Source: Vitis vinifera
Lineage: Eukaryota; Streptophyta; Magnoliopsida; Vitales; Vitaceae
Assembly: GCF_030704535.1 (NCBI RefSeq)
Contig: NC_081817.1
Span: 4,783,501-4,847,500, forward strand
Direction: 5' to 3'
Length of the DNA: 64,000 nt
In this document: positions 5,563 through 55,500 of the stretch, in pieces
Layout: every line of letters begins with the position of its first letter
How positions within the stretch are numbered: position 1 is the first letter of the stretch
Notes under the pieces: generated by a model
What the model saw: the letters and a program-made list of their open reading frames with translations, nothing else
Database searches by the model: none
Told to the model about the DNA's origin: nothing
Made by a program: the position numbers and the translations under genes

Positions 5563-5745
5563 ACGCCTGCATGCTTATAGTTATGTGTGTTGAAACTGTT
5601 GTAGTTAATTATTTTACTTTCATGTTTTGGAAAAGAGTAGACTGGGGCTAGAGTTGAACGCCTGCATGCTTTTAGCTATGTGTTGAAACTGTGATATTTG
5701 TTTTACTTTCAGGTTCTGGAAGAGATTAGACTGGGGCTAGAGTTG
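5563..5745 (+). repeat. Tandem duplication spanning the UPF2 splice acceptor
   Basis: Two diverged copies of about 90 bp (5563-5657 and 5658-5745) each contain 'cgcctgcatgctt', a 'gttgaaactgt' motif, a 'ttttactttca' polypyrimidine stretch and then the start of the exon ('gactggggctagagttgaa'). In the downstream copy the acceptor is 'ttcag' and it opens the real exon at 5713. In the upstream copy the same place reads 'ttcat', so the acceptor dinucleotide is lost. Confidence 0.85.
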
Positions 5746-8700
5746 AATGACTATGGGATGCAGCAGCGACGCATTGCCCATATGAGATTCTTGGGAGAGC
5801 TTTATAATTATGAACACGTGGATTCATCTGTTATCTTTGATACTCTCTATTTGATTCTTGCTTTTGGCCATGAGACAGCAGAGGTATGGAGGTATCTTGT
5901 TTTTTAAAGAAACAATTGTTTTTTGTGTAGTCTATTTCCAGTAGTTTAGACAGAATGGCTAGGCAATCCAATTGTGCTAGGCAGTGTATAACATCAATAG
6001 CATACTTCATTTTTTTTTTTAATTCTTTTGGTTTATTATCATTATTATTTTTAACTTTAATATGGTCACACAACTTACTAACATATACGAAAAAATATGA
6101 AGGTGAGAGATTAGTGCATTTTGAAAATTGTTTCTCTAATTTTGTCTTTGCTAATGTTACAATTGGATTGATCTATTTGATTTAAGGGAAAAACTGACAA
6201 CATAGTCCTGAGATTCAGACAAGAGAGGACAAACAGAAAATATAGAAGAGCCAATGTCTTATTTCTTAAATGTTAGAGAAAAGTACAATTTTAATGTCAT
6301 TTGTCTATTTTTTTTTTGGGGGGGGTGGGAGGGTTTCTTTTCTTCCTTTGATGGACTTAATGTCACTTGTCATTTTATTATGATACGGTGATTGGGGAAC
6401 AATAGTGAAAGTGTCTTGCATATCAAGTTGTGAGAAGTTATGATCTGAGATGATTTTTGGATCATTTGCTTTACTCTGCTCGACTAAACTAGTCATAGTG
6501 TTTGGCTATGCTGCAAACATGATAATTTAAAAATTGAAGCCATTTGTTAGTTAAGTCTATTCTTAGCTAGATAGTAAATTGGCCATGTACTCAATTGTTA
6601 GAATTGACCATGGATGTTGGGTGTCTCAGATTCCTCAATTTGTAAATGAGCATTCATGAACACTGTGGCACATTTAAATTGTGTGGTTGATCCTGTAAAG
6701 GGGATGGGCCAAATTCAAATGTGATGGTTGGTCATAACAACATTATTGTGAATTTGGTTCCATCCACAGCTGATGCAGTAAGACCATTCAGGTACCATCT
6801 TGTCCAACACATCTGTCAACTGCGAAGCCACTCAATCTTACATAGGTTCAGGTTGCAGATGATGCAAAACACATTACCATGGAGGCACCTTCCGTTGTCT
6901 GAGAATTCCATGGATATTTTAGGAATATCATTCTGGATTATGATAATACCATAGAACTCATAACTTGAGGTTATTAATGTGTGTGCGTGCTGATCATTTG
7001 GCTGATTAATTGGCAGATATTGACCATGTTCTCGAGTGTACTAAGTACCCCTGCAATGGAGGGTGACTTCCTCACTTATTTGTCTATGATTGTCTCTCTT
7101 ATTGGGAGGGTTGTGCTGCAGATCCTGCCTGATCTTGCTTGTCACCCTTAGAACCAATATCTGCATGTGCATACCTTAGGTTCTGATCCCATATATGCAT
7201 TCAAATGCTTCACATAACCAGAGAAGTGAAAGTGAGAATATTTATAGGAGCGCCTCCATCAGTGGATACTTCTTTCCATATAATTCTGATCTGACCTGAT
7301 GTCTTATATCCTGTGTATGATGTCTATGCACGTGAAAATTGCTTATGGGAACATGAATAATGAAGCGCTTCCATCAGTGGATACCTCTTTCCATATAATT
7401 CTGATCTGACCTGATGTCTTATACCCTGTGTATGATGTCTATGCACGTGAAAATTGCTTATGGGAACATGAATAATGAAGTGACATACAAATCAGTGCAA
7501 GCCATTCTTTTCTTTTCTTTTCTTTCTTTTTTCCCTGCTTGGTCAAATCTATATTTCATGCCATTCTCCTATCAGATAAGGATGCTCTAATGTGATGAAT
7601 TTATTTGAAAATAGCATGCACTTGAAATTGGCTTTTTTAAATAAGGTTTAAAAGACCTTTTTGAGCTCCTTGGATCTGTGCTGTTTATGATTCCCCTAGT
7701 TTAACCTTGTTTCTCTTTTCATATTATTAGCAAGATGTACTGGATCCACCAGAAGATTGTTTCCGCATTAGGATGGTTATTACCCTTCTTGAGACCTGTG
7801 GGCACTACTTTGACCGGGGTTCTTCTAAGAGGAAACTTGATAGATTTTTAATACATTTCCAGAGATATATTCTCAGCAAAGGTGCACTACCGCTAGATAT
7901 TGAATTTGACTTGCAGGTCAGTCTCTGAAACTCCTCTTCTCCTTATGCACACATCTGCCAGATTGGGTTATATGATCTCATATCCATGCAAAACTTTGGT
8001 TTAAAATATTGTGCAGTTTGTTTGAGCAAGGAAATTTTAATAGCTGACCTTCCTTAGTTTGTGCAATTGTAAGGTCTTGTTGGCCACTTGCTTGCCATTT
8101 GAAAATCAAATTAAAAAAAAAATGTATCTTTTCAATAATCCCTTCACTTCTGAAAAGTGGTCCAATAGAAAATTTTCATCTGTTCATCTAATCAATGCTT
8201 TAAAAAAAATTCTGTTAGGCAAAGAAGGTTATGTATAATACAAAAATAAACAAAGTACTTTGAAGTATATAGGATGTATACATGAAGCACCCCCACTTTC
8301 AAGAAAACCTCACCCAATCTGCAAAATCAAAGGCATCGAGCCTTCTCTTATGTACATGCTAATCAAGCTGAAAGATTGCATAGGAATGAATGTTTTAACT
8401 TTTGCTTAGTCTTCATTTTCATTCTCATCAAGTTGTCCAAATATGCAAAGAGGAGCGACTCTTCAAACCTTCTGTCTTTTCCTCCCTACAAAGTGTCATG
8501 TCAACTTAACAGAGTTTCTTTTACCAAGTGCCTTGATCTTGATATAATGAAGTAGAGTATGCTTAATAGACTCCCCCTCAAGTTTGCAAAGAAAACATCT
8601 ATTTGCTAGTGGTCACCCGCTTTTTTGGAGTTGATTTGATGTCAACTTGTCCCCAATTGGCTTGCCAAGCAAAAAAACTCACTTTGGATGGGACCATAGA

Positions 8701-11594
8701 TTCCAAATAATGTCTGTTGGAAAGGGGATTGACTTCTTGGGTTCCAAGACCTAATAGAAAGATTTAACTGAAAACACGCCCTTCTTAGAATCCTTCTAGA
8801 TCACCTTGTTGTTTTCTTCTCTCCTAACTGACAACATTAACAATCTTGAGAAAAAAGTCTCAACAATGTTTAGTCTCCAATCGTTAAAGTGCTTGGAGAA
8901 GCACAGATTCCAATGACCCCTAGCTCTCCCATAAATGCCCATCCAAGCCTCCTTGGACAAGGCAATCGCATGCAAGGAGAGGAAGGAAAAACACACCGGT
9001 TCCTTGTCACTCTATTTGTTCTTCCAAAACTTAGCTCTCCTACAGTTACCTACTTAAAAGGATGCTTTACTAAAGAAAAGATCTAACCCCTTATAGCTTA
9101 TTAAAATGGGAAAACTGGTTGTGATGAGGATATTCTTTCGATTGAGTGTGTTTTATGTTGAAGGTACTGGGGGGTATACATGTATTGTAGTTAAGATAGA
9201 GGGAATGTCTTGTCGGAATAGATCTCACCCCTTAATAGCCTATTAAAATGGGGAAAACTAGTTGTGATAAGGATCTTCTTTTAATTGAGTGTGTTTTACG
9301 TCGGGGGTACTAGGGGGTATACATGTATTGTAGCTAAGATGGAGGGAATGTCTTCTCAGCCTAAAACTTGGTGTTTAACTAAAACAGAGTACGTTGACAT
9401 GGATGTTCTCTGCCTTGGAAAGAAAAATTGTTTCTGAAACAAGGCAGGGTGACAAGAGAATATGGTTCTCAAAATTTCATAAAAGTAGCATCATTTTTCT
9501 AAAGGATCAAAATAGGCTAAAAAACCAGGGCAATAGATTTTGAAAGATGGGTTATATATTACCTTTGAATTTAGACTTCGGTTTACTTGAACCTTTAGTA
9601 CAGCCCACTGGAACCCCAATTACTAAGGACCCAGAAAGATTTTAGGTGCTTCATAATTAGGTTCTTGTTTCAATAATTTGGGAATCGTGTCCTGAACAAC
9701 ACATGCTATGAAACACCAGCCAAATTATCTTCATTGGGCCTGATCTTTCAGCTTCCCATACGGTAGTCAAGTGTGTGGTTGAATTGGGAATGGAAATGCC
9801 CTCCTATGATTGGAAAAGGAAATAAAAATATGTTCAGAAGCATTGTTCTCTAAAGAATTCACCAAGTTTTGTGGGAAACTGAGAGAGAAAAAACGAATCT
9901 CTTTAGATTGTGGACAATTTTTTCTGTAGCTTTATACTGGCTAACACTTTCAAGTTCCTGCAGTTTCCAAACTTAAGGGTTGGATTAGAAGGAAACTTAA
10001 ACTTGAGCTGTTAGAAGAGGCTTCAGTTTGAGCTTTTAGGAATCTGATTGATCATGGAAGTTCCTTGCCTTTTCAAAATTACTTTGGCCACCATTATGGC
10101 TTGTTTTTCATTTGTTTTTCAAAGAATAAGGCCCATTTTTAAGACATTTATGAAATTATCTCATTCTCTACTCTATATATTTGTCTAGACTCATAAATGA
10201 AGCATTGCAGGACTTATTCGCAGATTTACGTCCCAACATGACACGTTACTTATCCATTGAAGAAGTTAGTGCAGCTCTAATAGAGCTTGAGGAGCATGAA
10301 CGTACATACACAACTGACAAGGCCAACAGTGAGAAGTATTCAGACACTGAAAAGCCTTCAAGCAGGACTACTTCCAATACCAGCTCAGCGAATGGACAAA
10401 GCCCTGCAAATGGTGTTGAGGAGAATGGTGGAGCACATGAGGATGTCATAGGTGAGAGTGACAGCGACTCAGGGAGTGGCACCATTGACCCAGAAGGACA
10501 TGACGAAGAAGAGGAGTTGGATGAAGAGAATCATGATGATGGATGCGACAGCGAAGATGATGAAGACGATGGGGGTGGACCTGCATCCGATGAGGATGAT
10601 GAAGTCCATGTCAGACAGAAGGTGGCAGAGGTGGACCCTCAGGAAGAAGCCGATTTTGATCGGGAGCTCAAGGCTTTATTGCAGGCAAGATTTAGTTTGA
10701 TGCTCAGTGTGTGCCTTGGCCTTTAAATTTTTTGTTATTTTTCATATATGATGCTTTACATTCCATTTTATTAGAAAATATTTGTTTGGAAGAAATAATT
10801 TAGGACTCATGATTCGTTTAGTTTTAGATGCATTGGCAAGATTTTGTTGCATCTCGTAATGGAAGAAAATGTTAAAACTTGAATATATTCCAGTGAAGTA
10901 AGCTAAAAATAGAAATTGAGAATAAACAATTCATGATAATTTTACAAAAGTAGTGTCTAAACATATTTTAATGGAGTAGGAGTGTGGGCGCTGTAATGTT
11001 AGTTACTATCAGTGACCATTGGTGACTTTGTTTTAATAAAATGGGAGGGGTTACGGTAGACAACTTTTTAACACTGCATTTAAAACTTGGATGCAGGAGA
11101 GCTTGGATTCACGCAAGCTTGAGCTGCGGGCCCGGCCTACACTAAACATGATGATACCAATGAATGTTTTTGAGGGGTCAACCAAGGATCATCATGGACG
11201 GGGGGTTGAGGGGGAAAGCGGGGATGAGATATTGGATGAAGAGGCTGGGGGAAGCAAGGAGGTCAGGGTGAAAGTTCTTGTAAAGCGTGGGAACAAGCAA
11301 CAGACAAAGCAGATGTTCATTCCTCGGGATTGCTCGCTTGTGCAGAGCACAAAACAGAAAGAAGCAGCTGAGCTTGAAGAGAAACAAGACATTAAGAGGT
11401 TGATCTTGGAGTATAATGATAGGGAAGAAGAGGAGCTTAATGGGGTGGGAACCCAGACGATGAGCTGGACGCCAAGTGGAGGTAGTAGAGTTTCCCGAGG
11501 TAGCTCATGGGAAGGGGGGAGAACATCTGGAGCACGTCATCGGCATCATCAGAACTATTCCGGTGGTGGATTTTATTATGGCAGAAGAAAGTGA
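5713..11594 (+). CDS. UPF2: UPF2, regulator of nonsense transcripts 2 (3' part)
   Basis: UPF2 bridges UPF1 and the UPF3/exon-junction complex in cytoplasmic nonsense-mediated mRNA decay. Four exons are visible: 5713-5883, 7731-7916, 10211-10684 and 11097-11594 (stop). They join in frame to 441 residues. Exons 1-2 carry the end of the third MIF4G domain ('GLELNDYGMQQRRIAHMRFL', 'CGHYFDRGSSKRKLDRFL'). Exon 3 begins 'DLFADLRPNMTRYLS' and holds a long Asp/Glu/Ser-rich acidic linker. Exon 4 carries the C-terminal UPF1-binding region ('LELRARPTLNMMIPMNVFEG') and an RG/GGY tail. The preceding exon, expected to end just before 'VLEEIRLG', is not in the window, so 1-5712 is intron and the gene is 5'-partial. 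The third visible intron starts with GC rather than GT. Identity is near certain from the residue pattern. Confidence 0.95.
7250..7479 (+). repeat. 115-bp tandem duplication in UPF2 intron
   Basis: Two adjacent copies, 7250-7364 and 7365-7479, differ at only a few positions. Each starts 'gcgc.tccatcagtggata' and ends 'gaacatgaataatgaa'. The near identity indicates a fairly recent event. The duplication lies about 250 bp upstream of the exon at 7731 and has no coding sense. Confidence 0.95.
8250..9070 (-). mobile_element. LINE fragment, decayed, antisense to UPF2
   Basis: The minus strand at 8996-8796 reads 'HWNLCFSKHFNDWRLNIVE', matching the 'SWNPCFSRPFNDWEVEEVE' type block of plant LINEs. 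Further down, about 8700-8640 gives 'VPSKVSFFAWQANWGQVDIK' like the zf-RVT region ('P.KV.FFAWEA.WGK'). Stops and shifts interrupt it. It sits in the UPF2 intron 7917-10210. Confidence 0.7.
9079..9360 (+). repeat. 141-bp tandem duplication in UPF2 intron
   Basis: The copies at 9079-9219 and 9220-9360 share 'agatct.accccttaatagc' and 'gggggtatacatgtattgta', with about 10-15 percent divergence by eye. They directly follow the LINE fragment and may derive from its 3' tail. Confidence 0.85.
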
Positions 11595-24900: not shown

Positions 24901-24909
24901 TTTAAATTT

Positions 24910-25905
24910 AACAAAAAAAAATCAAATTTTTAGTTTTTATTGATAAACAAAACTTCATGCAAAATAATTAATTATTTTGAAAATCATAATAGATTCAAAA
25001 ACTAAGAAACTATGAAATAATAATCTATGATGTTAATAACACTTTCGATAAAAGTTTTTGTTAACAATAATCACTTTGGGAATTCTTTGTTAAGATTTTG
25101 AATTCACCGGTCTTGAAAAATAGGTGAGTAATATGAGTTTGTGTACGTTGTTTCAAATAGTGATGAAAATATCATGAAATATTGTTGATTTTTCATGAAA
25201 TATTGATTATTTTGTGGATAATTTGTTTGCCCTATTAGTGTTTCTATTCCTTTACAAATTGAAGGGTTTTTAAATTTAATAAAAATACATAAATTTTTAG
25301 TTTTTTTTTTTATCGATAAACAAACTTTATGCCAAATAATTAATTACTTTGAAAGCCAATATAATAAATTCAAGAACTAATAAATGAGAAAACGATAATC
25401 TATGACATCAATATCACTTTTAATGTGAGTTTTTGTTAAATCTTTTTGTTAACAATAATGACATTGTTGATTTTTTATTATGATTTCGAATTGAGTACTA
25501 TCGTATAATAGATAAGTCACATGGACTGAGGTATATTGTTTTAAAAATGAGTTGATGATGTGGTTTCAAATTTATTAAAAATATCATGAAATATCGGTTT
25601 TTTTGTAGATATTTCACTCGTCATGTTAGCATTTCTTCTGTCTTTTCATTTAAAAAATTTATGGATTTTTAAAACCAAAAAAATAAATTATTTGTTTTTA
25701 TTAATAAACAAAACTTTATGCAAAATGATTAATTATTTTGTAAATCAACATAATATATTTAAGAATTAAGAAATGACAATACAATAATGCATGATGCTAA
25801 TAATACTTTTGATGTGAGCTTTTGTTAAAATTTCCTTGTGAATTTTTCTCTTTACGATTTTGAACACGTTTTTTTTCTCCTTTCCTTCAAAAATTTGAAG
25901 GCTTA
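24910..25905. repeat. Three diverged tandem copies, about 380 bp each
   Basis: A phrase close to 'ataaacaaaactt.atgc' followed by 'aaataattaattattttg' recurs at about 24942, 25315 and 25703, so spacing is 373 and 388 bp. Each copy continues with a similar 'taataacactttcgat...agtttttgtta' stretch and, in the first two, 'atatcatgaaatat'. The copies are old and AT-rich, with no coding sense. Confidence 0.8.
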
Positions 25906-29172: not shown

Positions 29173-32100
29173 AGATGATGTGGCGGAGTCAGTTGAGGGC
29201 CATGCTTCTCAGCCCATCTCCACGCCCGCTTACAACACTCCTCACTCGCTCCTCCAATTCCTCGCGCCCTCGCCTTTTCGCTCTCCACAAAACCCTATCT
29301 TTCCATTCACATCCCTCATTTCGCTCTCCAACAGCCCTCAATTTCCCTGCCAGTTCCGCCTTCGTAGTTCCCGTTCGATGCCTTTCTTCGATTTTTCCGG
29401 CGAACACACTGGAGTGGAACGAGCCGGTGTCGTGCTCGGAGGTGGGTGATGCGGATGGCGAGGGTAGAAGCCTTGGGGAGGAAGATTCCAGGACTTCGAT
29501 TCCTGTTAGGGCGTACTTTTTTTCGACTAGGTTTGTTTTGGGTTGATTTAGTTTTCTTTGTTTTTGTTCTGCTTCTGGAATGGGCTGTTTGGTTGCTGAG
29601 AAAATGTGGGAAAGGAAAGGAAAGGAATTAGGGGCATGGTCTGCTTCCATGGTTTGGTTTGCAATAAAATGAATAAAGTGGTAGTAGATGCAGAAAATTG
29701 TTTTCCGTTTTTAGTCTTCTGTTTGTGTTGAAAGAAAAACAGAGCAATATAACAGAAGAAACACGGCGAGAAAAAAAATGTATATATATTTGCCTGCTTT
29801 ATTTTGGGAGTCATTAGGGCAAGTTTGGAAAACATTTCTCTGAAACTGGAGCCGAACACTTAGGGCAAGTTTGAAAGACACTTCTGTGAAATTGGAGTAT
29901 CGCACTAATACAATTTCGATTGTGATATATATATTTTTTTCATTATTTCATTATTTGGGTCTCTGTAGAACGAAGGCATGGAATGAACATAGCTTACTAG
30001 AAAAATTAAATCATAACCATAGTGTACCGTATTCGTTAGATATTACAGAAGTTCCTGAACTAATCAGGCTTTTTTAGACTGAATAAACAAAATCCGAAAA
30101 GGCACCCAACAAATATCAGTTGTTCCCTAATTACTCCTGTGTATTCTGAGTTTTTATCAATATAGGCAACTCCCAAACTATTTGGGCTGATTTAATTCCA
30201 GCCCAAATCCTGGATTTGTGGCTATGGCTATGGCTATGACCCTGTTTTTGGTTGCTGAGAAAAATAGAGGAAAGAAAAAGGGAACTTGAATATCAAGTTT
30301 TTTGGTGGGGTTAGTGCCAGTTTTGTCTTTGTTGCCTCCATGCTCACATTACACAATCAGAGGAAGCAAAAAAAGAATATCCGGTTATAATATTTCCATT
30401 TTATAATCTTGATGTTGTTGATTCTTTGAAAGGTTTATCTTGAGCCAAATAGTTTCATTGGGACCAGTCGAGTAGATTTATTTGTTTCCTTATTGTTTTT
30501 ATATTATGTGGTCTGAAATGATGATTGAGGGAGTGTTGTTGTCTTCAGAAATTGAATGGCTCCATTGTATTTTACATTGCATTTGAAGTTACAATTTCAT
30601 TACCTAGAATGGGGCCGTTAAACTCTTGGGTTTCATAAAATATGCTGTTTCAACTTTTTATTGAAGTCATATTGATGACTGTTACTTTCCATTAGTATCT
30701 GATTTATCATAAAGCATATATGAAAAATAATGAAACAATTCAATTTCCATGGGACAGCCAAACATGTCATGAGTATTGCTTTACTTTGTTTGCCTACATT
30801 TTTTTCAGCAATGCAACAGTGGATAATCCAAAAGTATATGATTTTTTGTGCTTCTGAATCTTGTGATTGTTTTTGTTGTAGTGTGGATTTGAGAAGTTTA
30901 GTGGAGCAGAACAGACCCCATTTCATCCCTCCAACATCCCGAATGACTAACTATGTTGTTTTTCGGTTTGGAAACCTTGAGTCAGACTACAATGTAAGTA
31001 TGTCACCTTGTTCCTTTTATTTGGAATAGTTTTAGCTTTTAAGGTAGTATGTCTTTGCTGATTTTGAAGGGGTGGATTTGGATGTGGGTTATCAAAATTC
31101 AAATCCATTTGATATCAGTGGATTTAAGCTGCATCTGGTTGACCATGATTGAGTTTGTTTTGCAATTCCATTTCACTGCAATTCAAATATCTTGTTTTTA
31201 TTATGGAATTGCTTTTGTGGGTTTGGGTTCTTTATACTTTAAATTCAACACCAAAGCCATTGGATGCAACAAATAAAACACTCAAATTGTTGATTATGGG
31301 TGGGGGCTCAAATTCAAATTCAGTCCCCAGTTTCATGCAAGCAGGAACAGAATATTTGTTGTCACCATTTTGTTTTTGTAATTGTTTTGACCTAGGAAAA
31401 TTTTGGCATTAGGAAACTTATTTTAAGCCTGGGTGCCAGGCTATTTTTCAAGCACTTGACAACTTTGGATGTCAAATTGGTCTATCTGATTTCATCACCG
31501 AATCATTTCTTGAATCAATGATATTCACGTTGGAGGAATGCAATAGATATTACAACATGCCTTTAAAGACCAAATTCTTCTGTAATTGCCAACGTGTACA
31601 TCAAAATGAAAGCAGTAACAAGACCTTTGTTTCAGGTTTCAAATGCTAGCTTGAGTGGGAGTGACTGCTGTTACATGGTAGTTTTTCAGTATGGCTCCAT
31701 TGTGTTGTTTAATGTACCAGATCATGAGGTTGATAGGTGTCTGAAAATTGTAGAGAAGCATGCTTCAGGATTGCTTCCAGAAATGAGGAAAGATGGTGAG
31801 CTCCCAAAGTTCATTTCAATTATGAAGTTATTTCTTTCTTTTTCTTTTAATCTTTAAGCCCATTTACCTTCAAGAACACACACATACACACAATTTGAAA
31901 TGTAAGGTGTAAGGTTAAGAGGTGGGAATTGGAAACCCTTCAGTATGCAAGAATAGGACACGGTAAATGTCAGCCTTCATTATTGATCTAAGAGAAATTA
32001 AACTTTCAGAACCTAACAATGGTTGGAACTGGCTATAGAAGCAAAGGCGCACACATTTTATAAAACTCATTCAAATTTCAATATTAGCCATGCAGTGTTA

Positions 32101-35100
32101 TTTGAAATGTAAGGTGTAAGGTTAAGAGGTGGGAATTGGAATACCTTCAGCATGCAAGAATAGGACACAGTAGTGTCAGCCTTCATTATAGATCTAAGAG
32201 AAATTAAAGTTTCATAACCTAACTTTAGTTGGAACTGGCTATAGAGGCAAAGGTGCTAGCACCGGTGGAAGGCTTAAACAAGGCAAGTTCTTCGGGCTTT
32301 CAGTAACTTGCTGATGGAGGATGACTCAACCATAGTTATATCCTGGCCCCTTGGAAACTTGTTTTTTTTCTTTTTTCTTTTTTTTGGGCTGCAAAATCTC
32401 TTACTTGTCTACAGAGTTGGCATGCCTTTTTTTATGGATCCCATGTTTAGCTAAGTGAAGTGCTTCTAGGCTAGAGGTTTATGTAGGGGAGTTCATGGCT
32501 GCTTTGGAGGTTTCTTGATCTATATATTTGGATATTTTTGTTTGCTTAAGGCATTTCTTTTCTCTATCTTGACTTGTTCACTTTTGAAGGTGCTATCCCT
32601 TGTGTAGTTTTGGTTCTTGATGCAATGCATTTCTGACCAAAAAAAGAAACGTGAACTTATTCTATTAGTATTTTTTTTTTTCCGTTTTTATCTTTATTGG
32701 AGCCCTTTGGTTGAAGATCTCATCGATGCATTAGAAATCAAGGTCTCAATTCCCCTTATACCTCATACTCATGCTTTTGTACAAGTGTATTATTGAAATT
32801 TCCAGTTTAAGTGTGAGACTTGACTGGTTCACAATTGGATGAGTCTCTGGTTTGGCAGTGACACTGATTTATCTCTCTCTTTCAGTGTAGTTGTTGTCTA
32901 TTCTTTTGTTTGAGGTTTGTTAGACCTTTGCTTCCTCAATAGATTAGAATTGCATAAGATGCTAAACATATTGTAGGAATTTTTGACTTAAATGACTTTG
33001 ATTTCCGTGGGTCTGAAACTGTAGAGTATGAGGTCAGAGAGATGCCAACTTTAAACACTTGGATGCAAGGTGGGTTAGATTACATAATGTTGCAGTACTT
33101 GAATATTGATGGAATCCGAACTATTGGTAGTGTTCTCGGTCAAAGTATTGCTCTTGATTACTATGTGCGCCAGGTATGTTGCCAATCACCATAAGAAGTT
33201 GTAAATTTTGAAGTTTTTGCTTGATCAAGGATGCTTAGCAATTTCTTTCTTTTCTTAGGTTGATGGTATGGTTGCGGAATTTACAGACATTAACCGTGGG
33301 ATGGAAAAAACTGGAACTTTCACCATGGAAAGGAAAAAACTTTTTCAGTTAGTGGGAAAGGCAAATTCTAATCTCGCAGATGTGATTCTTAAGCTTGGAC
33401 TTTTTGAGAGGTGATAATTTTGTGACTGGTGTTGAAAAGAAAATTGTTCATACTGCTTTGCAATTCTGAATTTGATAGGCTCACTATTGTTTTTTTTTAC
33501 TTAAACGGCTTTTGATAGAGGATTTTATTGATCATTAATGAATTTCAGTTTTGCTTACATTGACATTGCTTGCATTGTCTTGGTTGATTTGTTTCTCTGA
33601 AAATGCATTAGGGGGTGCATCTGTTGGGCGTAAAATATTTAGTAAATTGCTTTTAACCAAACATAAATAGGTCTTAAATTCCAAGTTTTTGGCAAAAAGA
33701 TTAGTGCCGAAGTTAAGTAATAGATAGCTTTAGAAATTTGACAATTGAGGAATGAATAGAAGATGAATTCTAAAAACAAACACTAATGAAATGGTAATAG
33801 AAGTTCATATGCAATAAGTTGAAAAGCATAATGTTAGCAATCTATTCAGAGATTCTAGACTATCAATAACATCCCTGTGCTTTTGGAATTTGTTCATCAT
33901 CGTTGGCAGCATTGTTTACCTTCCTATTTTAGTGCCAGCAATGGAGTGGGATGGTGACAGGTTGAGACCTACTCAACTTGGAAGAAAATTATTTGAAAAC
34001 TCCTAGTGTGTGACACTATGACCATGTGTTTGAAAAATGCATTTCTGGCACTGTGACTACGTGTTTAAAAATTCATTTCTGGAAATGAACTTTCAAATTA
34101 CTTTACTACTTTTTTGTTTTTAATGAAGAACAACAGTTTTTGGAAACAAAACCAAACACACCGAAATCCCTTGTTTTTGTTGGGTTTCTCCTCCAGTTTT
34201 ACAAGGGATTTCAATTGAAATTGGTTAATGAAGAGTTTTATCTTTTATTTTGGTTTTGATCTCGTCATGTCTTCCTTCTTGGTTTCAGAAGCTTCTTGCC
34301 TCCAGCTCCACACCTAGAGCTTTATTCTCTAATATTTTTTATCACTTCTCTTTTCAACGACTGAAAAGTAAATTTTTTTTTTTCTTTTTTTTTTTTGGGG
34401 GGGGGGGGGGGGAGGGGATTTGAGAGTTTTGCAGGATACTCTTTGAGGAATGTTGAGATGTTAGATGGGTTTCAAGAGGATGATTGATTGTTGGAATCCA
34501 GTTTTTGGAAAGCAGAGTGGGTTTGAAGGGTGTGCTTGAGGTGTAAATTTTTTCCAGTGGGTTTGGGAAGTGCCATCCACACATCATGTCTATGGGAACT
34601 GAGAAAAAGTGTGCTTGAGAAGTTGTAAAACTTGTCCACTGGGTTTTGGAGAAACTGTCCCTGCTTGTCTATGGAACTGGGAAAACCTGTAGTTACCTTT
34701 TATCTACAATTGTTTCTACTACTACAACTACTTCTACTACTAATAGCAACAACAACATTAGAAAATTGTTTACGGTTTCCAAAATTCATTTCAATGTATA
34801 TGTAAATCTTTCCCTGATTAATATCTAAGTTAGATAAGAAGAATTGTATATTCCAATCTCCAATCCTTATAGTTCCTCAATTAACATGATCATCTTTTTA
34901 TTTTTTCTTTTTATTTGTTACCTTTTGTTTTTAAATATGATTTTACTTTGCTTGATATGCATTATATATAACCTCTAGAAACTTTTTGGGATTTTCCAGA
35001 TCAGATATTGCCTGGAAGAATGCCAAATATGCTCAGATATGGGAGTATCTCAGAGATGAATTTGAATTAACTCAGAGATTTGCAAGTCTTGATTTTAAAT

Positions 35101-35380
35101 TGAAGTTTGTGGAGGTACAGTATTTCCAATCTTTCTTCTCTTAGAAAGCATTTTTGGTTCAACACTTGAAAATCGGTCTTCAGGCTTTCCTTTTCAACTG
35201 ACCCAGATATTTTTGTGACGTCTTGGTTTTTCCTTGCAGCATAATATTCGCTTTCTTCAGGAAATTCTTCAAAATAGAAAATCAGATTTCCTGGAATGGC
35301 TTATCATCATATTGATAGGTGCTGAAATTCTCATATCTGTTTATGATATTGCCCATAAATCATCAATTACTTCTCTGTAG
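29169..35380 (+). CDS. RRG: RETARDED ROOT GROWTH-like, DUF155/RMND1-family mitochondrial protein
   Basis: In Arabidopsis RRG is a mitochondrial protein needed for root meristem cell division. The yeast and animal relatives (Sif2/RMND1) support mitochondrial translation. Seven exons join to 396 residues: 29169-29530, 30882-30993, 31636-31795, 33025-33173, 33259-33410, 35000-35114 and 35240-35380. The N-terminal 80 residues are rich in Ser, Arg and Leu with few acids, as in a mitochondrial presequence. The DUF155 core includes 'IPVRAYFFSTS', 'VFQYGSIVLFNVPDHEVDR', 'RTIGSVLGQSIALDYYVRQV', 'KTGTFTMERKKLFQLVGKAN' and 'LKFVEHNIRFLQEILQNRKS'. One transmembrane helix follows ('LEWLIIILIGAEILISVY', about 368-386), then a short tail. 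The start is the first in-frame ATG. Two further Met codons lie within four codons. Splice sites are all GT-AG. Identity is strong, and exon 1 is the least conserved part. Confidence 0.93.
31893..32270 (+). repeat. 207-bp tandem duplication in RRG intron 3
   Basis: The copies start at 31893 and 32100 with 'atttgaaatgtaaggtgtaa' and share 'gtcagccttcatta' and 'gttggaactggctataga'. The second copy is shorter at its 3' end. Divergence by eye is 5-10 percent. Confidence 0.9.
34372..34418 (+). repeat. T-tract joined to a G-tract in RRG intron 5
   Basis: A run of T interrupted once by C is followed by 16 G, then 'agggg'. A similar T9G8 junction occurs at about 6310-6325 in a UPF2 intron. Such tracts slip easily and are prone to sequencing error, and the G run could form a quadruplex. 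Confidence 0.9.
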
Positions 35381-36213
35381 CACCAGTTTCTGGTGATCCA
35401 TGAAGTCAAGTTTTGATTGAAGGTCAGAGTTGCTGCATATTTATTCTCCAAATAGCTTCTTTTCTAGTCTACTACCCATCATATTGGCCCTTAATGTATC
35501 TTGTAAATTCTAATTTAGAATTTACTTCTTTTTTTGGCCTTTTGGGATCATTTTTATATCATATCTAGGATGTATTCTGAATTTGTAATTATTTTTGTAA
35601 TAGTAAGAAATATGAGTCACAATTCACAGCAATATCTTATGCTCACTTTTTTTCAATCATCTTGAAATCAAGTTGAATAAAATTTTAGTGCACATGGATT
35701 GTGCCAGATACAATTTTGTTTGAGCAGCTATGTTTGACCAAAAATAGGTTGGAGAAAATCAATGGTAGAGGAAAGGGCCAAGGGTATGGGGATGCTTGCT
35801 CTTTATAGTCCCAGTGATATGAACGATTTGGTAAGTTCCTTAGGGACAAGTGACAAAATATATTCTCTCTGTATCGTGTTATTCGATATGAATCACTTCC
35901 ACAAGCCTATGGCAAAGTTTGTTTAATATGTGCATAGTTGTCAAATTATATATTTCATTTATTATTAACTTCTGTAAAATTTGGAAAAGATTTATTGCTT
36001 CATTTCTTGAAAGGTCAGCTTCAGCAGACACTTGAACGACCATGAAACTGAAGGGTTTAACTTGTGGCTTATCATTCTGGATGAGGTTGGATTAATTTGG
36101 AAAGCAAAGTTCTTGCTTTATTTGTTGCCAGTCAATTCTAGGCATCTTTCAAGTCAGGTCTTAGAAAGCCTCAAGGCTAGACTGATGTTTGATATGTAGG
36201 CTAGTGGGGAGAT
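35381..36213. other. RRG 3' flank
   Basis: Probable 3' UTR followed by non-coding DNA. There is no open frame beyond chance length and no recognised element. Confidence 0.5.
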
Positions 36214-36524
36214 AGCTTAGGCTAAAGGATCAAGGATCATTCATAAAAGTTCTTATGTTCCTTTCCATCCAAGCCACTCAAATGATAGCAAGCAAAGGCA
36301 TGTCATAGAACTCTCTCTGCTCCATAGCATATATCGTTTTCTTTGGCAAGGATCTAGTATGTCATTTGGGAGGATTTAGAGTTATGTGAGTCATCTCTTT
36401 TTGTGGGATTTCAGGAGAGAGAGAGAGTTCTATGACATGCCTTTGCTTGCTATCATTTGAGTGGCTTGGATGGAAAGGAACACAAGAACTTTTATGAATG
36501 ATCCTTGATCCTTTAGCCTAAGCT
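36214..36524. repeat. Long inverted repeat, 105-bp arms, 101-bp loop
   Basis: Arm 1 (36214-36318) and arm 2 (36420-36524) are reverse complements at 104 of 105 positions. The single difference is at 'cttatgtt' in arm 1 against 'aacacaag' in arm 2. Read from the minus strand the mismatch becomes a G:U pair. A transcript through this locus would fold into an almost perfect hairpin. It lies between RRG and the NT-C2 gene, in non-coding DNA. Confidence 0.97.
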
Positions 36525-36735
36525 GTATGGCATATATTGTTTTCTTTGCCAGGAGTTCAGTGGGCATTTGGGAGGATTTAGAGCTAACCTATGTGGGTCA
36601 TCACCTTTTTAAGGGTTTCAGGCAGAGAGTGAGTTTAGGGTGCTATTACATTCTGATTATTTGCTATCATTTGAGTGACTTTGATGTAAAGTAACAGGAG
36701 ATTTTTTTATGGAAGATGCTAGTTCTTCAGGGGAT
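36328..36735 (+). repeat. Diverged tandem copies overlapping the inverted repeat
   Basis: The hairpin loop plus arm 2 (36328-36530) is repeated directly downstream (36531 to about 36735), about 203 bp apart. Shared phrases are 'catttgggaggatttagag', 'gggatttcagg' or 'gggtttcagg', and 'tgctatcatttgagtg'. The direct copies differ far more than the two hairpin arms do. Confidence 0.85.
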
Positions 36736-38363
36736 GTGTGCATAATTTGCAGTCTTGCCTTGCTATGCGTCCAGATGCAATTTTCCCCTACAAGAAATCA
36801 AAGAGTGGCCATTTTGTGCTGAGAGAATCCTCCTTTGGAATGGATTCTATAGTGTTTTAATGTGTGATATTTTGGCAATCTAGTCTAGATGGTCATTTTA
36901 GGTGTTTCTACCTCTCTTGCATTCTTGTTTTACTAGATTTCTAAGTGATTTCAAACTGCTAGTTTTGTTAAGTTTTTCATTCATTAGTATTACGGGCCTT
37001 GATGTCTTGTAGAGATCCAGACTCTTTAAGATTTCAGCTAGTTGTCTGGGGAAGTTTAGAGGAAGGAAAGGGAGAATTTGAGTTAGTAACTTCTCCATAC
37101 AGTTAGTGGATTTTTTCTCCTTCCCCTGGAGTGAAGGAAATCTTGACGAACCATGTAATATGTGGTCTATTCTTTAGTGTGAACGAAACTGATCAACCAT
37201 GGTTCCGCAATTTGATCCTAGCATTATCTTTTATTTTTTTAATAGTGTTGTTTTCTCTAGCTTTCATCTGCCACATGAAATTGAAATTTGAACCTCCCTT
37301 ATCCCCATCCAAATGCTTGCCACTTAAGCCAGGTCTCTAGGACTGCAAAGAGTCACTTAGAGAGGCTAATTCATTCGTAGCTGTATCATCATCATGGGAG
37401 ATTTAGCTCAGGCCTTCTTGGGGGTAAGGATTCTTGTATAATCACCTATAATGGAGATATTTGAGAAAGTTCAGCTCCCAGGGATGGATCCTTTGGATAT
37501 GGTCCTACCTAGGTAACCAAATTGGGAAGTTGATAGATTAGTCAGAAGGGGCTGTAAAATAATCTAGTAATCTATCAGCTTCCACTACAAAGATGAGAGA
37601 TTCTTAATGCGATTCCCAACACCATTAGTGATATCCAAGAAATAAAGGTCAATATTTGTACCTCTAATGGCCAATCTTTGGAACCTCTCAGAACCCTCGG
37701 GTTCCCATATGGCAGCTCCACATAATCAGAGGGAACTTAATTGAGCAGGAGCTCAACCTGCCAAAAATCATGCTGAAACTTCACTCTTTGCCCATTTCAC
37801 AGGGAAAAGGAAACATGAGAAAGGCATATATATATATATATGCTTATGGAATTCATCCAAATCCCACCTAATGCCTTCCATAACCTTTATCCATGAGAAT
37901 CCCTTACCACTGCAGTGTCCAAGCTTCACTTTCAACCCTAAATTTGTATTCTGACAGTGTCTCCGAAGACTATCTCAATGTAGAACCCTGAAATCTGTTT
38001 TCCAAGGAGGGCTTTGTTTAGAACATCAAGCTTTTTCACCCTCAAGGCTTCCTCCTTGGGAGGACGCACACCCCCTTTTCAGTAAAAAGGTGAAATCAGT
38101 GATACATCGAGTTTTTTATACTAGCATTGCAAAATTTATTCTTTGCAACTGGCATGAGTTGAGATCTGGTCTAGCATTGCTTTTACCATTTCAAAGCGCA
38201 AATGGGCATGTGCCGGAAAATGCTAATCAGGTTGTTTTTAGTTATTTATGAGTTCTGGATTTACTGGTGTATAAATTCTTCGTTTAAAGTTGTCAATTAC
38301 AGTGCCATTACATTTTTCCACCCCAATTTTTCAAGCTTAGTCCTTCCGCCTGATTGATTAAGA
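36736..38363. other. Unassigned non-coding DNA
   Basis: Mixed-composition DNA with no supported exon. Some frames between 37130 and 37800 give protein-like stretches of 40-70 residues that match no family I know, possibly eroded transposon sequence. The right end is the 3' flank of the minus-strand NT-C2 gene. Confidence 0.4.
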
Positions 38364-40483
38364 TCAACTCCATCTTTTGATGTGTGAGTTTCTGTTGCAT
38401 GGAGCCGTGTGGTGAAACTCAATTTGCAGAAGGTGATGAAGAGGAGCTTCTCCAATAATTTTCTTTTCAATATCAGCTTGAAGTTCTCTGAGAGGAAGAG
38501 CTGCTAGAAACCCCTTAATAAATTCTTTGCAGGTAGACTTTCCTTGACAGACTAATTCCCTGTGACTGGTCTCATCTTCTTCTCCTGCATTGGTTGAATG
38601 ATTTTCTGTGATTGCTTCTGAGTTCACTTCCCTTTTCCTTCTCTCTCTCGGTGCTTTGAAAATCTTACTTTCTATGTTGAACTTTAAAATGAAGGCTTTA
38701 TTGCAGCCTTCAAACAGCCTCTCACCTAGTGTGTCAATTATATAAATCACATTCACTTCTACCTTGAGAACAAAAAAGTGATCATTCCAGCTCACGATGT
38801 AGATTTCCTCCTCTATTGTTCGTTCACGCCTTCCCAGCTCCTCCCATATACTGTCAAAGGACATGGCACCCTTCAGGAATTCCAACCGATTTGGCATGTT
38901 TTCCAGCTCAAAGAAGCCCACATACGACTTCTCTGGGATCACTGTTAATGGTCGAACTTGTTCTTGTAAGACTGTGTCAAGGTCGAAGTGTTGGTCCAGA
39001 AATTCTTTCATGTGGACCACACTTTCACATAAGTTTCTCCATTCTGAAGATCCTTCTCTTACCAATTTATCAAGTTGGCATCTCAGAGGTAGGATTTCTG
39101 GGTTCTGATGGAGCCAATCAGCAATAGTCACAGCTAGCACTGTGCAGGCACCTTCACCTGATGCTCTCTCACTCCGCTGATCAATGGAAGCCAGAAATAT
39201 CTCTGTCTCTAGCTCCAGTTTCCCATCTCTGCTTACCAGTTTTCGTTTTTCCCAGGTGCCTATCTCAAACCGATCACTGCCTGTAAATGCACAAGACCCA
39301 GAATCACTTTCGCCCTGACTGCATCTTGCTTGTGAGGAAGCTAATTGGCAGCGTCGATCATTGTCAATATCATCTCCCCCATCTTCACCATTTGCTTTGT
39401 TCAGGAGAGGTGTACCTCTAGGAAAATTAGGCACTCTGAAACTATGGTTGCATTTGTTCCATGAGAGAAGTCTGATCAGTGAAGGTTTCTGCTTGACCTG
39501 GTAATTTAGCGGATCGCCTGCATCCCAGTTCTCATCCTTCTTGTTATTGAAATTTTCACACGCAGTATCACTGCTTAGTAGATTTGTCATTGCCAGGTTC
39601 CTGTAGGTTAGTTCAGATTCCTCATCTGATTCTGAATTGGATGAACCATTTGATTTCACTGGAGAACAGTTCCAGTCTCTGGAGAATTCTATTCCAGCTT
39701 GCTCTTCGATATTTATGAATCCCTTGTCATCAGTTTGATTCTGAAATCTTATGCATGATGACAGAGAGGGTAACAACAGTTTTGGAGAAATTGGATGTAC
39801 AGTGCTGTTGGTGTGTTCACTTTGGATCTCAAAGAAGCTGAGTTTCATCTGCAATGTAAAATTTGCAAAATTAGCTAAAATTATCATAGTAGGATTTTGT
39901 ATAGCTAGCAAAAAGGATCATGTTCAACTTACTGTTAGCGTGGCCACATGGGTGGAAGTGGAACCATTGATGCAATACTTGACTGGAAATTTGACAATTT
40001 GTTCTGAATTTGCAGTTGGACAAGCAAATGCAGCAATATCTACTTTGGATTTAGATACAATAATTGATGCTGGCCTGTTTGATGCTGAACCAAATTCCTG
40101 GTAAATTTGGTATCTGAAAGTTAGCTACTAAGTTTCAAATCACACTGTTTATCAAGATGTGTAGTACTTACAAGAATTTGGAGGTTGATCATCCATCTTC
40201 TGAAACCCTTGGAGTCCCTGGGTTTCAACTTGCAGTGGTGATCAAAACATTCATTCCAAGTGACACTCCCATCTGGGTGTGCGCTTTGTTTGGAGGTGCA
40301 ATTCCTTTGAATTGCTCCTCGTAATAGGTAAGCTTTTCTGGGACCTACCCATTCTATCTGTACAATCATATTGGCAGATTCCTTATTCAGCAACTCTGAT
40401 GATGATAAACCTTGGAGATCACAGATGGTAAGATGTAGCTTGAAACTTCTGCTCTCTGGTGTATGAACGCCTGCACAAAACAT
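38364..40483 (-). CDS. Plant NT-C2 (EEIG1/EHBP1 N-terminal C2) domain protein
   Basis: Three exons on the minus strand: 40483-40172, 40097-39933 and 39848-38364, joining to 653 residues from the first in-frame ATG. Residues 1-185 form the NT-C2 fold ('FKLHLTICDLQGL', 'IVQIEWVGPRKA', then 'VDIAAFACPTANSEQIVKFP'). The middle is a Ser/Asp/Glu-rich linker containing 'NGEDGGDDIDNDRRCQL'. The C-terminal third carries the highly conserved plant block 'ETEIFLASIDQRSERASGEG', 'SSEWRNLCE', 'HFDLDTVLQEQVRPLTVIP', 'IVSWNDHFFVLKVE' and 'IIDTLGERLFEGCN'. Arabidopsis relatives are AT2G25460-like proteins of unknown role. NT-C2 domains are thought to link membranes and cytoskeleton. The usual N-terminus (MVVKMM.WRPWPP) was not found, so an upstream exon may be missing here, lost or too diverged to see. 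Body identity is strong and the 5' end uncertain. Confidence 0.8.
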
Positions 40484-41619
40484 CTTGCAGATGAGAATTT
40501 CTTCTGGGTTATGCCATGTGACCAGGAATATCAATCATATATCACTGCAGAAACTTGAATTGTTGCTGGTGTTGACATTAAGTACAGGAAGAAGGACGGG
40601 TGTAAGTCAACTTGTAGCCAATGCGCAACAAATTCCAATTCGAAATGAGTATACAATAGAGAAGGGTAATATCATATGTGAGATAATTTTTGACTGGTTC
40701 AGCACCTGACCCAGTTTCCTTCGGATATTTCCTACTTTGATGGATTACTCCATCCCTTTCCAGAAACCAGAAATGGAGGGGCACTTCATGCTTGGATCAC
40801 TAATATTCTTTTTCTGTTTAATCAATCATTTCTCTATAGAAAAATGAAGGACGAAAGAGATTGTTTCTTCTCTTGTAGGATTTTGATAAGGTTTCATATG
40901 GGTGAGTCACTTTCTAGACTTCTGATTTAATATGTGGGTTGTTGAAGTGAGACATTTTATTTTATTTCTGTCCGAGTGTCACGGCAGCACCTCTTAATTT
41001 CTTTATCCAATTGGCGGTGCAGTTGGGCAAAAGGATATTGATTTGGACCGAGGATTTGAATTCAGCTATAGAATTGGGTTGATAAATTATTCGATTGCGG
41101 AGTCACCATCTCCATCTCTCTTCTTCAAGCTCGCCCTCGCCCTCTATTCATTCAATTGGTTAATGTAAAATGAAATATTGTGGCATTGGTTCCACTCCTA
41201 GGTTGTTTAGTTGTTTGACAGGATTAGACGATTACTACCATTTGTGGGGGGCTCCCGACTCTGAGAGGCACAAAGAAGGGAGAAAGGTTGTCTGACTTTC
41301 ATACAACTAGACGGATCTGACTTCAATTAGCTCAGAATCAACACTATTAGGGTTTTTGAGTCCTATTTCAATATCAAATCAATACTTACAAAAAATATTA
41401 GAACCAATCTCGATCATTGATGTGTATAATTTGGTTTTACATTTTTTAATATTTTGATTTTATTTGTTTGAGTTATAATTTCATAGATTTATATTTGCAT
41501 CTAATAATTTACATTTCATTGTATATAACCTAAAATTTCCAAGCTAGCTATGTGCTTTTCATCTCTCTCTATCCATCCGTCCTCATTTTTTTTCTTTCAA
41601 GCAAGTTGCTTAAAGGAGG

Positions 41620-52568: not shown

Positions 52569-55500
52569 ATGGCAGATGGTCCGGCGAGTCCCCCCGGAGG
52601 CAGCCACGAAAGCGGCGGGGACCAGAGCCCCCGCCACAACGTTCGTGAGCAGGACCGGTACCTTCCGATCGCCAACATCAGCCGCATCATGAAGAAGGCG
52701 TTGCCGGCTAATGGTAAGATCGCCAAGGATGCGAAGGACACTGTCCAAGAGTGCGTCTCCGAGTTCATCAGTTTCATCACCAGCGAGTACGCGGATCTCT
52801 CTCTCTTTTCTTTTCCTTCTATTTCTCCGATGATTGTGTTTTGGGTTATTTGATTAAAAGGATGAAATCTTTTCCTTCTATTTCTCCGATGATTGTGTTT
52901 TGGGTTATTTGATTAAAAGGATGAAATAATCCCAATTGGTAAAGCTAACCATAACCGTTCACTCATTTTCAACCTAAACAATATCCATTGTTGACCAAAA
53001 TATCCTTCACCTAACATGGCAGAGTTTGATTTACAAGGAAATTAGGGTTTTGGTTTTGCAATTGCAAAATATTTTTTGAAAATGTTTCTTGTTTAGGGCT
53101 AGTGATAAGTGTCAGAAAGAGAAGCGAAAGACGATTAATGGTGATGATCTGCTTTGGGCGATGGCGACCCTAGGATTTGAAGATTATATTGAACCACTAA
53201 AGGTGTACCTGCAGAGATATAGAGAGGTAATAATTCTTCTGGTTTTAGTTATCATTGATTGGTTATGAAAATGAAAGAAATCGAAGTTTTGAATCTTCAC
53301 GGTTTTTCTTCTAGTACTAAATATTATTTTTTTGTTTTTGTTTCAATTTAATTTATTGATATGAGAAGATGGAGATTTCTTTTAATTTGCCAAGTAATAG
53401 AGGAAAAGAAAAGACAATGAAGCTTGGCTTCCAAAATCAACAAATTTAACTCAGCTAATCCAATTAGTTGTGTTAAATTCATTGAGTGGAGCCTTTTTTT
53501 TCTTGAGTTCCCAAGTCATGAAAAATCCGAGCTTCAAAATCCTTTTTATAGGTCTATTGCTCTCCAAATGATCCAGCTTCTTCACGTTAGCATATATCAA
53601 TATTTTATCTCCAAAAATATGCTTATTTGTTTAAAGGTTGACCTGACAAATTTTTAATATGTTTTTTTTTTTTTTTTTTTGTGTGTCTTATCTTCACCAA
53701 ATGGTCTTGGCATCACAGCTGGAGGTACAACCCTTTTCCTCTACCTAGTATAATTGTTGTTTTTTTTTTTTTTATCTATTTATTTCCTTGATTATTTGCT
53801 TGTTTGTGTTGTGTATTCTTGTAAGCTTATGTTTTAATGATGTTAGCCAATTGTAAACTTGGACAGGGTGATACCAGGGGATCTGCTAGAGGTGGAGATG
53901 GATCTGCTAGAAGGGATGCAATAGGAAGTCAACCTGGTCCAAATGCACAGGTGCTATATTGTCATCTTCATTAGAACATAGATTTGGGCTTCACATGTTT
54001 TAAATAATAGCATTCATTTGTTATTGTGGAATGGGCTCTCATCCACATTCTTTTCCTTAATTCTGATTTATTTGGGAATGAATATGGCAGTTTGCTCATC
54101 AGGGGTCCTTTACGCAAGCAATGAACTATATGAATTCCCAGGTACATCTGCGCGTGTGTGCATATGTGCTGTCTATAACAAAGAAAAGATATGATCGCTA
54201 ACTGACAGTTAGGATATAATTTTGCTTGTGATATCGAATTAAGTATTACCTCTTCACCTTTGCTTCTTTTGAAAGAACAATCACAACTGGAAATTTTTAA
54301 TATTCAAGGAGTTCCATTTGCACTTCTCTTCTCTCATGCCATGTACTTTTAAAGTTGTTAAATGGTGTTGACAGTAATAGAGCTAATCCAAAACTTGGTG
54401 TTAGATTGTGTAGTTAGCTTGACCATAGCACCAAGGAAATAGTGGATGACCTCTTCTTATTGTGTCTTTTTGAAGATTTTTTTAGTCAAAAAACAACTGT
54501 TGCGTCTTTCCATTTTTTAATGTAAGTCCAGATTGAAGTTTTAGCCAAGGACACACACCCAGTTGGACCTGCCTACACCCTATGGCTTAAAACCAAGGTT
54601 GGGAGGGTTTAGATTCTTGAAAAGTTAGGTCAGTCTACTTTTTTTGGGCGGATTCATTTTGGTGCATTTGGGGCTCATAATAGTGGATTAGACTTGTTGC
54701 ATGATAGGCCTGCTCAGATAGGCCACCCACTTTTGTCGTGTGTGAAATCTTGAACCAATAAGCAATGGTTTAAATTCTACTCTCTAGGTTAAACTTAAGC
54801 TCAGAGCAAACATTTGCTACCCCTAAGTTGAGTCCTGGTCTAATTACCATAATTGGTTAACCATTAGATTTTGATCCAGCCTTTTCCTTTAGTTTTTTTA
54901 TGCTTAAACACACACAACAACAACAACAACTTTGTTTCTTTCCGATAGATGCTGAGCTTTTCTGTTTTGATAGCCTCTTTGTGTCTTGTACTTATGTCCA
55001 GTTCCTACCTATGAAATGCTTGCATAATTATATTTGAATGCCATTGAAAAGGATTTTCTTCAGTTAATACTAACTGTAGGTTTATTGTGGACTGTTAGTT
55101 CATGTAATATTACATGAATAGGAGTATTTTTTTTTTTTCATATGCAGTATTTGTGGTCACACTTAAAACAGAAGCTAAACAGTATGTAGGTGGAAAAGTA
55201 TTCGATGATTAAAGAAAAATTATGACCTTAATAGGATGAATAAAATCATCTAAACAATTAGAATTTGGAATAGGCAATTTGTTTACATGGTTATTTTTTT
55301 TTAAAAAAATGACAAGCATTACCCATAATAGAGGTTTGAGTTGGAAAAAGAATAAATCAAGAAAGAAGTTGAATCCTAATCCAAAATGTGGAAAAAAAAC
55401 ATAGCTCTAAAAGGCATAAAGTTCTCGTGGGTCTTGCCACAACCCATTACCCAAGGAAACGCTTGAGGAAGGTGAATCGCAATTTAGGTTGTGCATGTCA

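Follow-up and report, generated by a model that had tools for sequence, protein, structure and literature searches.

How a long and nearly perfect hairpin comes to stand between two genes, and whether it may enter the small-RNA pathways of the plant, are the questions raised by a locus in the grape genome. The locus lies in a window of 64 kb, which is the whole stretch of DNA analysed here (contig 13, positions 4,783,501-4,847,500), and consists of two inverted arms around a loop, followed by a decayed direct repeat. The features are listed below on the forward strand, with position 1 being the first letter of the window:

36214..36318, left arm: reverse-complement copy (rc-Y) of 36420-36524, complementary at 104 of 105 positions; adjoins tandem unit 1 at its left edge
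36319..36419, loop (X): first half of tandem unit 1, related to X' (36522-36626)
36420..36524, right arm (Y): second half of tandem unit 1, in register with Y'; probable source of the left arm
36522..36738, tandem unit 2 (X'Y'): diverged copy of 36319-36521 in direct orientation; the position of its right end is approximate
36320..36323, CTCC: complementary to GGAG at 36414-36417 and possibly the microhomology that primed the inner switch
36521..36524, AGCT palindrome: outer end of the right arm, also at 36214-36217 in the left arm; putative role in rejoining

The hairpin is real and exactly placed. Its arms of 105 nt each are separated by a spacer of 101 nt and differ at one site, where A at 36255 faces C at 36483 (A versus G after reverse complementation). 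The initial annotation had described a near-perfect 105-bp hairpin with 104 matches and a 101-bp loop, and the same coordinates were recovered. It had also stated that the locus could form a long RNA duplex and that a minus-strand transcript would pair fully by way of a G:U pair, and the computed folds agree with both statements. In minus-strand RNA, the odd pair 36255/36483 is G:U and the stem of 105 pairs is unbroken; in plus-strand RNA, the two bases are A and C and stay unpaired, and the rest of the stem is paired. The minimum free energies were -219.8 kcal/mol for the plus strand and -204.8 kcal/mol for the minus strand, as compared to means of -91.8 and -71.4 kcal/mol, respectively, for dinucleotide-shuffled controls (100 per strand). 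This corresponds to z-scores of -22.9 and -25.1, and none of the 100 shuffles of either strand was as stable. Both strands fold into one long near-perfect stem, as is characteristic of an inverted-repeat siRNA (hpRNA) locus.

Within the window, the hairpin is the longest of 53 inverted pairs whose members lie within 3 kb of each other. Of the others among the 25 longest pairs, one joins the left arm to tandem unit 2, another is a 71% purine-rich pair and all remaining ones fall into an AT-rich stretch at 26.4-27.0 kb. A filtered search covered the window and 200 kb from elsewhere in the assembly, the latter made up of 20 samples of 10 kb whose places were fixed beforehand and not drawn at random (at 3.00 Mb on each of 19 contigs and at 4.70 Mb on contig 13). 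Besides the hairpin, no inverted repeat of at least 90% identity in these samples or in the window passed a filter for arms of at least 35 bp, a spacer of at most 2 kb and a dinucleotide entropy above 2.5. The entropy filter drops simple AT repeats, some of which reach 94-95% in the window; the runners-up after filtering were two AT-rich pairs at 86%.

The key to the history of the hairpin lies in its right flank. Loop and right arm (36319-36521, 203 bp) jointly make up unit 1 of a direct tandem duplication that is old and decayed: positions 36324-36505 align with 36527-36720 at 73.3% identity over 195 columns (E 3e-24), and the score of unit 1 against unit 2 is 174, with a maximum of 35 among 200 shuffles. 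Identity is 80.8% over 99 sites for X and X' (19 differ) and 75% over 100 sites for Y and Y' (25 differ). The initial annotation had described the DNA around the hairpin as eroded, which has to be corrected insofar as a diverged second copy of loop plus right arm makes up the downstream flank. Homology between the units passes from the loop directly into the right arm in one and the same orientation, and hence the right arm occupies its original position, whereas the left arm was added. The decayed tandem copy thereby allows the older arm to be told from the newer one within one genome, a distinction that otherwise requires relatives. Two marks by which a template switch is recognised were found here, namely a near-perfect reverse-complement copy close to its source and a source arm that is identifiable as ancestral by its register with unit 2. 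The left flank resembled neither unit in either orientation beyond the level of shuffled sequences, of which 16 to 191 of 200 scored as well in six comparisons; the nearest was that of the left 200 nt with rc-Y (16 of 200).

The arms differ at 1 of 105 sites, far less than Y and Y' do (Fisher p 7e-8 for 1/102 versus 25/100), which bears out the initial view that the hairpin is young. If substitutions accumulate at an assumed 2.5e-9 to 1.3e-8 per site per year, the arms are about 0.4 to 1.9 million years old (the 95% ranges jointly extend from about 0.01 to 10.6 million years), and the tandem duplication would be about 9 to 61 million years old. The figure for the arms would be too young if they had been homogenised.

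The hairpin was probably created by a recent local inverted duplication, in which fold-back template switching inserted a reversed copy of 105 nt from unit 1 at the edge of that unit. Leftward synthesis, or a resected 3' end, would have passed through Y and then X and paused at the left edge of unit 1. The strand may then have folded back with X as the loop, primed itself through short GGAG/CTCC pairing, copied 105 nt of Y and stopped at AGCT, the unit boundary. Rejoining to the left flank, with AGCT possibly guiding the return, would yield a pure or near-pure insertion of rc-Y ahead of X. We infer the direction, the priming and the single event of this fold-back from the sequence of one genome, and an empty ancestral site is presumed. 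The only microhomologies at the switch points, the 4-bp GGAG/CTCC and AGCT, are weak. The inner one is present in the centroid and absent from the minimum-energy DNA fold; it lies beside a GA run, where chance pairing is easy, and a small internal loop separates it from the arms. The copied tract ends no more than 3 bp from the boundary between units 1 and 2, for which the chance is about 3% if the ends were random. This coincidence hints at the unit edge as a stall site or at an AGCT-guided return, of which AGCT accounts for it only after the fact. The inner end of the left arm (36318/36319) and the outer end of the right arm (36521-36524) both fall on tandem-unit edges, for which this account offers only part of an explanation.

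Events of this kind are already known, and the locus is noteworthy for its length, its youth and its built-in outgroup. Single-step creation of hairpins by template switching has been published for mammalian microRNAs and rRNA, and a template-switch origin is inferred for primate miRNA hairpins such as MIR633 (PMC8794818). As in MIR633, a single event would have placed a reverse-complement copy next to its source and thereby formed a perfect stem. However, the largest pattern mentioned in that report is at most 59 bp and failed the authors' quality control, whereas the arms described here measure 105 bp. In great apes, short-range template switching has been described to leave nearby perfect inverted repeats (PMC7954356). 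Moreover, fold-back insertions at double-strand breaks in yeast are reported to range from 10 to over 150 bp, most of them being about 5-34 bp, with inverted microhomology and a 41-nt loop (PMC11724301). The grape locus shares with these insertions the hairpin loop, a possible inverted microhomology, the inserted inverse copy and another end that is joined with little homology. It differs from them in its loop of 101 nt instead of 41 nt, in a putative microhomology of 4 bp instead of an imperfect one of 10 bp and in being a natural plant locus instead of an induced break. The arm length of 105 bp exceeds that of most yeast insertions, which counts against the fold-back reading. Small inverted triplications are of a similar size class (mean 148/160/148 bp) and have been ascribed to replication errors (PMC13334657), but they are described with a direct copy on both sides, and none was seen on the left here. 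A small inverted triplication was rejected, as 52 of 200 shuffles matched Y in direct orientation as well as the left 200 nt did. For the frequency of hairpins like this one, no rate can be taken from PMC13155455, which is described as counting only spacers of up to 8 bp.

Several other origins have to be weighed against fold-back template switching. The coincidence of the arm ends with the unit edges (36318/36319 and 36521-36524), as if one stall site had served for all breakpoints, also feeds the view that the inverted repeat is as old as the tandem duplication, that both were born in one complex replication event and that the arms were later re-homogenised by quasipalindrome-type template switching or gene conversion. 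Repair of stems by template switching has indeed been proposed, with evidence that the authors themselves term circumstantial (PMC8794818). We regard this history as unlikely: it needs two events, and decayed inverted homology beyond the arms was not seen when the left flank was compared with the reverse complement of X' (162 of 200 shuffles as good). An inversion in place, by which a third tandem copy of Y that once stood left of X was flipped, would explain why the left arm sits where a preceding Y would stand in an array. A flipped copy should resemble Y at only about 75% unless the array expanded recently, and no remnant of an array was seen further to the left, either against Y (the 52 of 200 shuffles given above) or when the left 853 nt were compared with unit 1 in direct orientation (132 of 200), which makes such an inversion quite improbable.

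Fold-back chimeras are a known fault of sequencing libraries, and the locus was read from the assembly. An artefact of assembly or library is nevertheless very improbable, given that the arms differ at one site and that their ends fall on a tandem-unit boundary; moreover, the 19 contigs with a listed length measure 19.9-36.7 Mb, which is the size of chromosomes and suggests that the assembly was built from long reads. Finally, long near-perfect inverted arms about a short centre are also what a foldback transposon or a MITE with 105-bp terminal inverted repeats would present. The loop of the hairpin is homologous to the flank outside the right arm, whereas the inside of a transposon should be unrelated to its flanks. 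Apart from the AGCT of the arms themselves, no exact target-site duplication of at least 4 bp was found within 6 bp of the outer ends; the output began at 4 bp, so that repeats of 2-3 bp were judged only from the bases directly outside the arms (left, GAT; right, GTA). The assembly from which the window derives (495.6 Mb, 21 contigs) was also searched for dispersed copies. The search skips very common words and shows that there is no visible family rather than proving uniqueness. Positions 36150-36600 gave five matches and positions 36522-37400 gave two, all at the hairpin locus; the right arm gave two matches up to E 10, which are the two arms, and a 30-base core with up to three mismatches was found in three places, namely the two arms and unit 2. 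A MITE or foldback transposon was rejected on these grounds, in line with the initial annotation, which had not seen an ordinary transposon here, and such an origin is hardly credible.

With fold-back template switching as the preferred origin, the setting of the hairpin bears on what it may do. On the left, open frames of the plus strand show similarity to an RMND1/DUF155 protein, with two matches to Pfam PF02582 (E 0.0039 and 2.4e-5) that fall short of the curated cut-off. The stop codon of this gene, which the initial annotation named RRG, is at 35378-35380; on this gene reading, the hairpin begins 833 nt beyond the stop, and one AATAAA (35676) lies in between. On the right, the frame at 40124-40534 of the minus strand has a sub-threshold similarity to NT-C2 (PF10358, E 5e-4). 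A minus-strand frame of 517 codons ending near 38364 has no Pfam match of its own and presumably belongs to the NT-C2 gene. On that reading, the two flanking genes converge on the interval that holds the hairpin. The open reading frames beside and over the hairpin (36011-36196 and 36509-36691) matched no Pfam family at E 0.1.

The initial annotation had suggested a DCL2/3/4 substrate or a proto-MIRNA, both of which are candidate roles. In plants, long near-perfect duplex RNA is processed mainly by DCL2, DCL3 and DCL4 rather than by DCL1. If it is transcribed, the hairpin RNA is predicted to be diced like that of an inverted-repeat siRNA locus. No match to Rfam at gathering score was found in the whole window. 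A permissive search in E-value mode of 36100-36800 gave four sub-threshold matches (E 0.0009 to 0.48), led by MIR1023 (27.9 bits against a cut-off of 90, E 0.0009) and FasX (32.5 bits against a cut-off of 100, E 0.0015); these are presumably scores that any long stem would reach. A known RNA family was rejected, with MIR1023 being far under its cut-off, and a match to a curated precursor family is not required of a new MIRNA gene. Known routes to plant miRNA genes include inverted duplication from transposable elements and pseudogenes as well as the transposition of MITEs (PMC3237417). Like the inverted-duplication MIRNA and inverted-repeat siRNA loci described there, the hairpin is an inverted duplicate able to fold into a long duplex RNA; unlike them, it has no parent gene, pseudogene or transposable element that could be found. 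The initial annotation had proposed to align the arms to the genome in search of a parent gene. None was found, and the only parent seen is the adjoining intergenic unit. A plant MIRNA usually derives from a gene, and this route is disfavoured here, as no copy of the arms was found elsewhere in the genome. Likewise, no copy that could be a silenced target of the arms was found elsewhere in the genome in the search, which skips very common words.

Today, the hairpin is most likely neutral, and a working small-RNA locus is a candidate with a small chance of being right. In its strongest form, and with equally slight expectation, the locus could be a plant small-RNA gene at birth, in which one intergenic fold-back slip between converging genes made a near-perfect 105-bp stem without a parent gene that is already transcribed by read-through and diced. 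If so, hairpin genes of plants could arise without a transposon and without a duplicated target gene. An example of what may become of such a locus is given by the small-RNA precursors of the Arabidopsis S-locus, which are described as having kept proto-miRNA features and as the source of hundreds of small RNAs (PMC13128112). The main text of a publication on grape small-RNA loci contains neither 'chr13' nor 'inverted' (PMC5050227). Among the matches listed for the plant microRNA gene literature, the term 'template switch' was not found, which is no proof of its absence in print. The locus may serve as a datable example of a long hairpin that arose at a stroke in a plant, and as a ready test of whether the dicing machinery picks up new hairpins at once.

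Local copying errors seem to be common in the window. Tandem duplications, some of them young, are present at 7249-7478 (115 bp at 97%), 52809-52926 (59 bp at 100%), 9103-9368 (123 bp at 84%) and 5606-5752 (58 bp at 86%). The AT-rich DNA at 24907-25828 contains three direct copies that have diverged and are spaced about 370-390 bp apart, perhaps a decayed repeat array. Moreover, a tandem duplication of about 207 bp with 90-95% identity (31893-32256) apparently lies between exons of the RRG-like gene.
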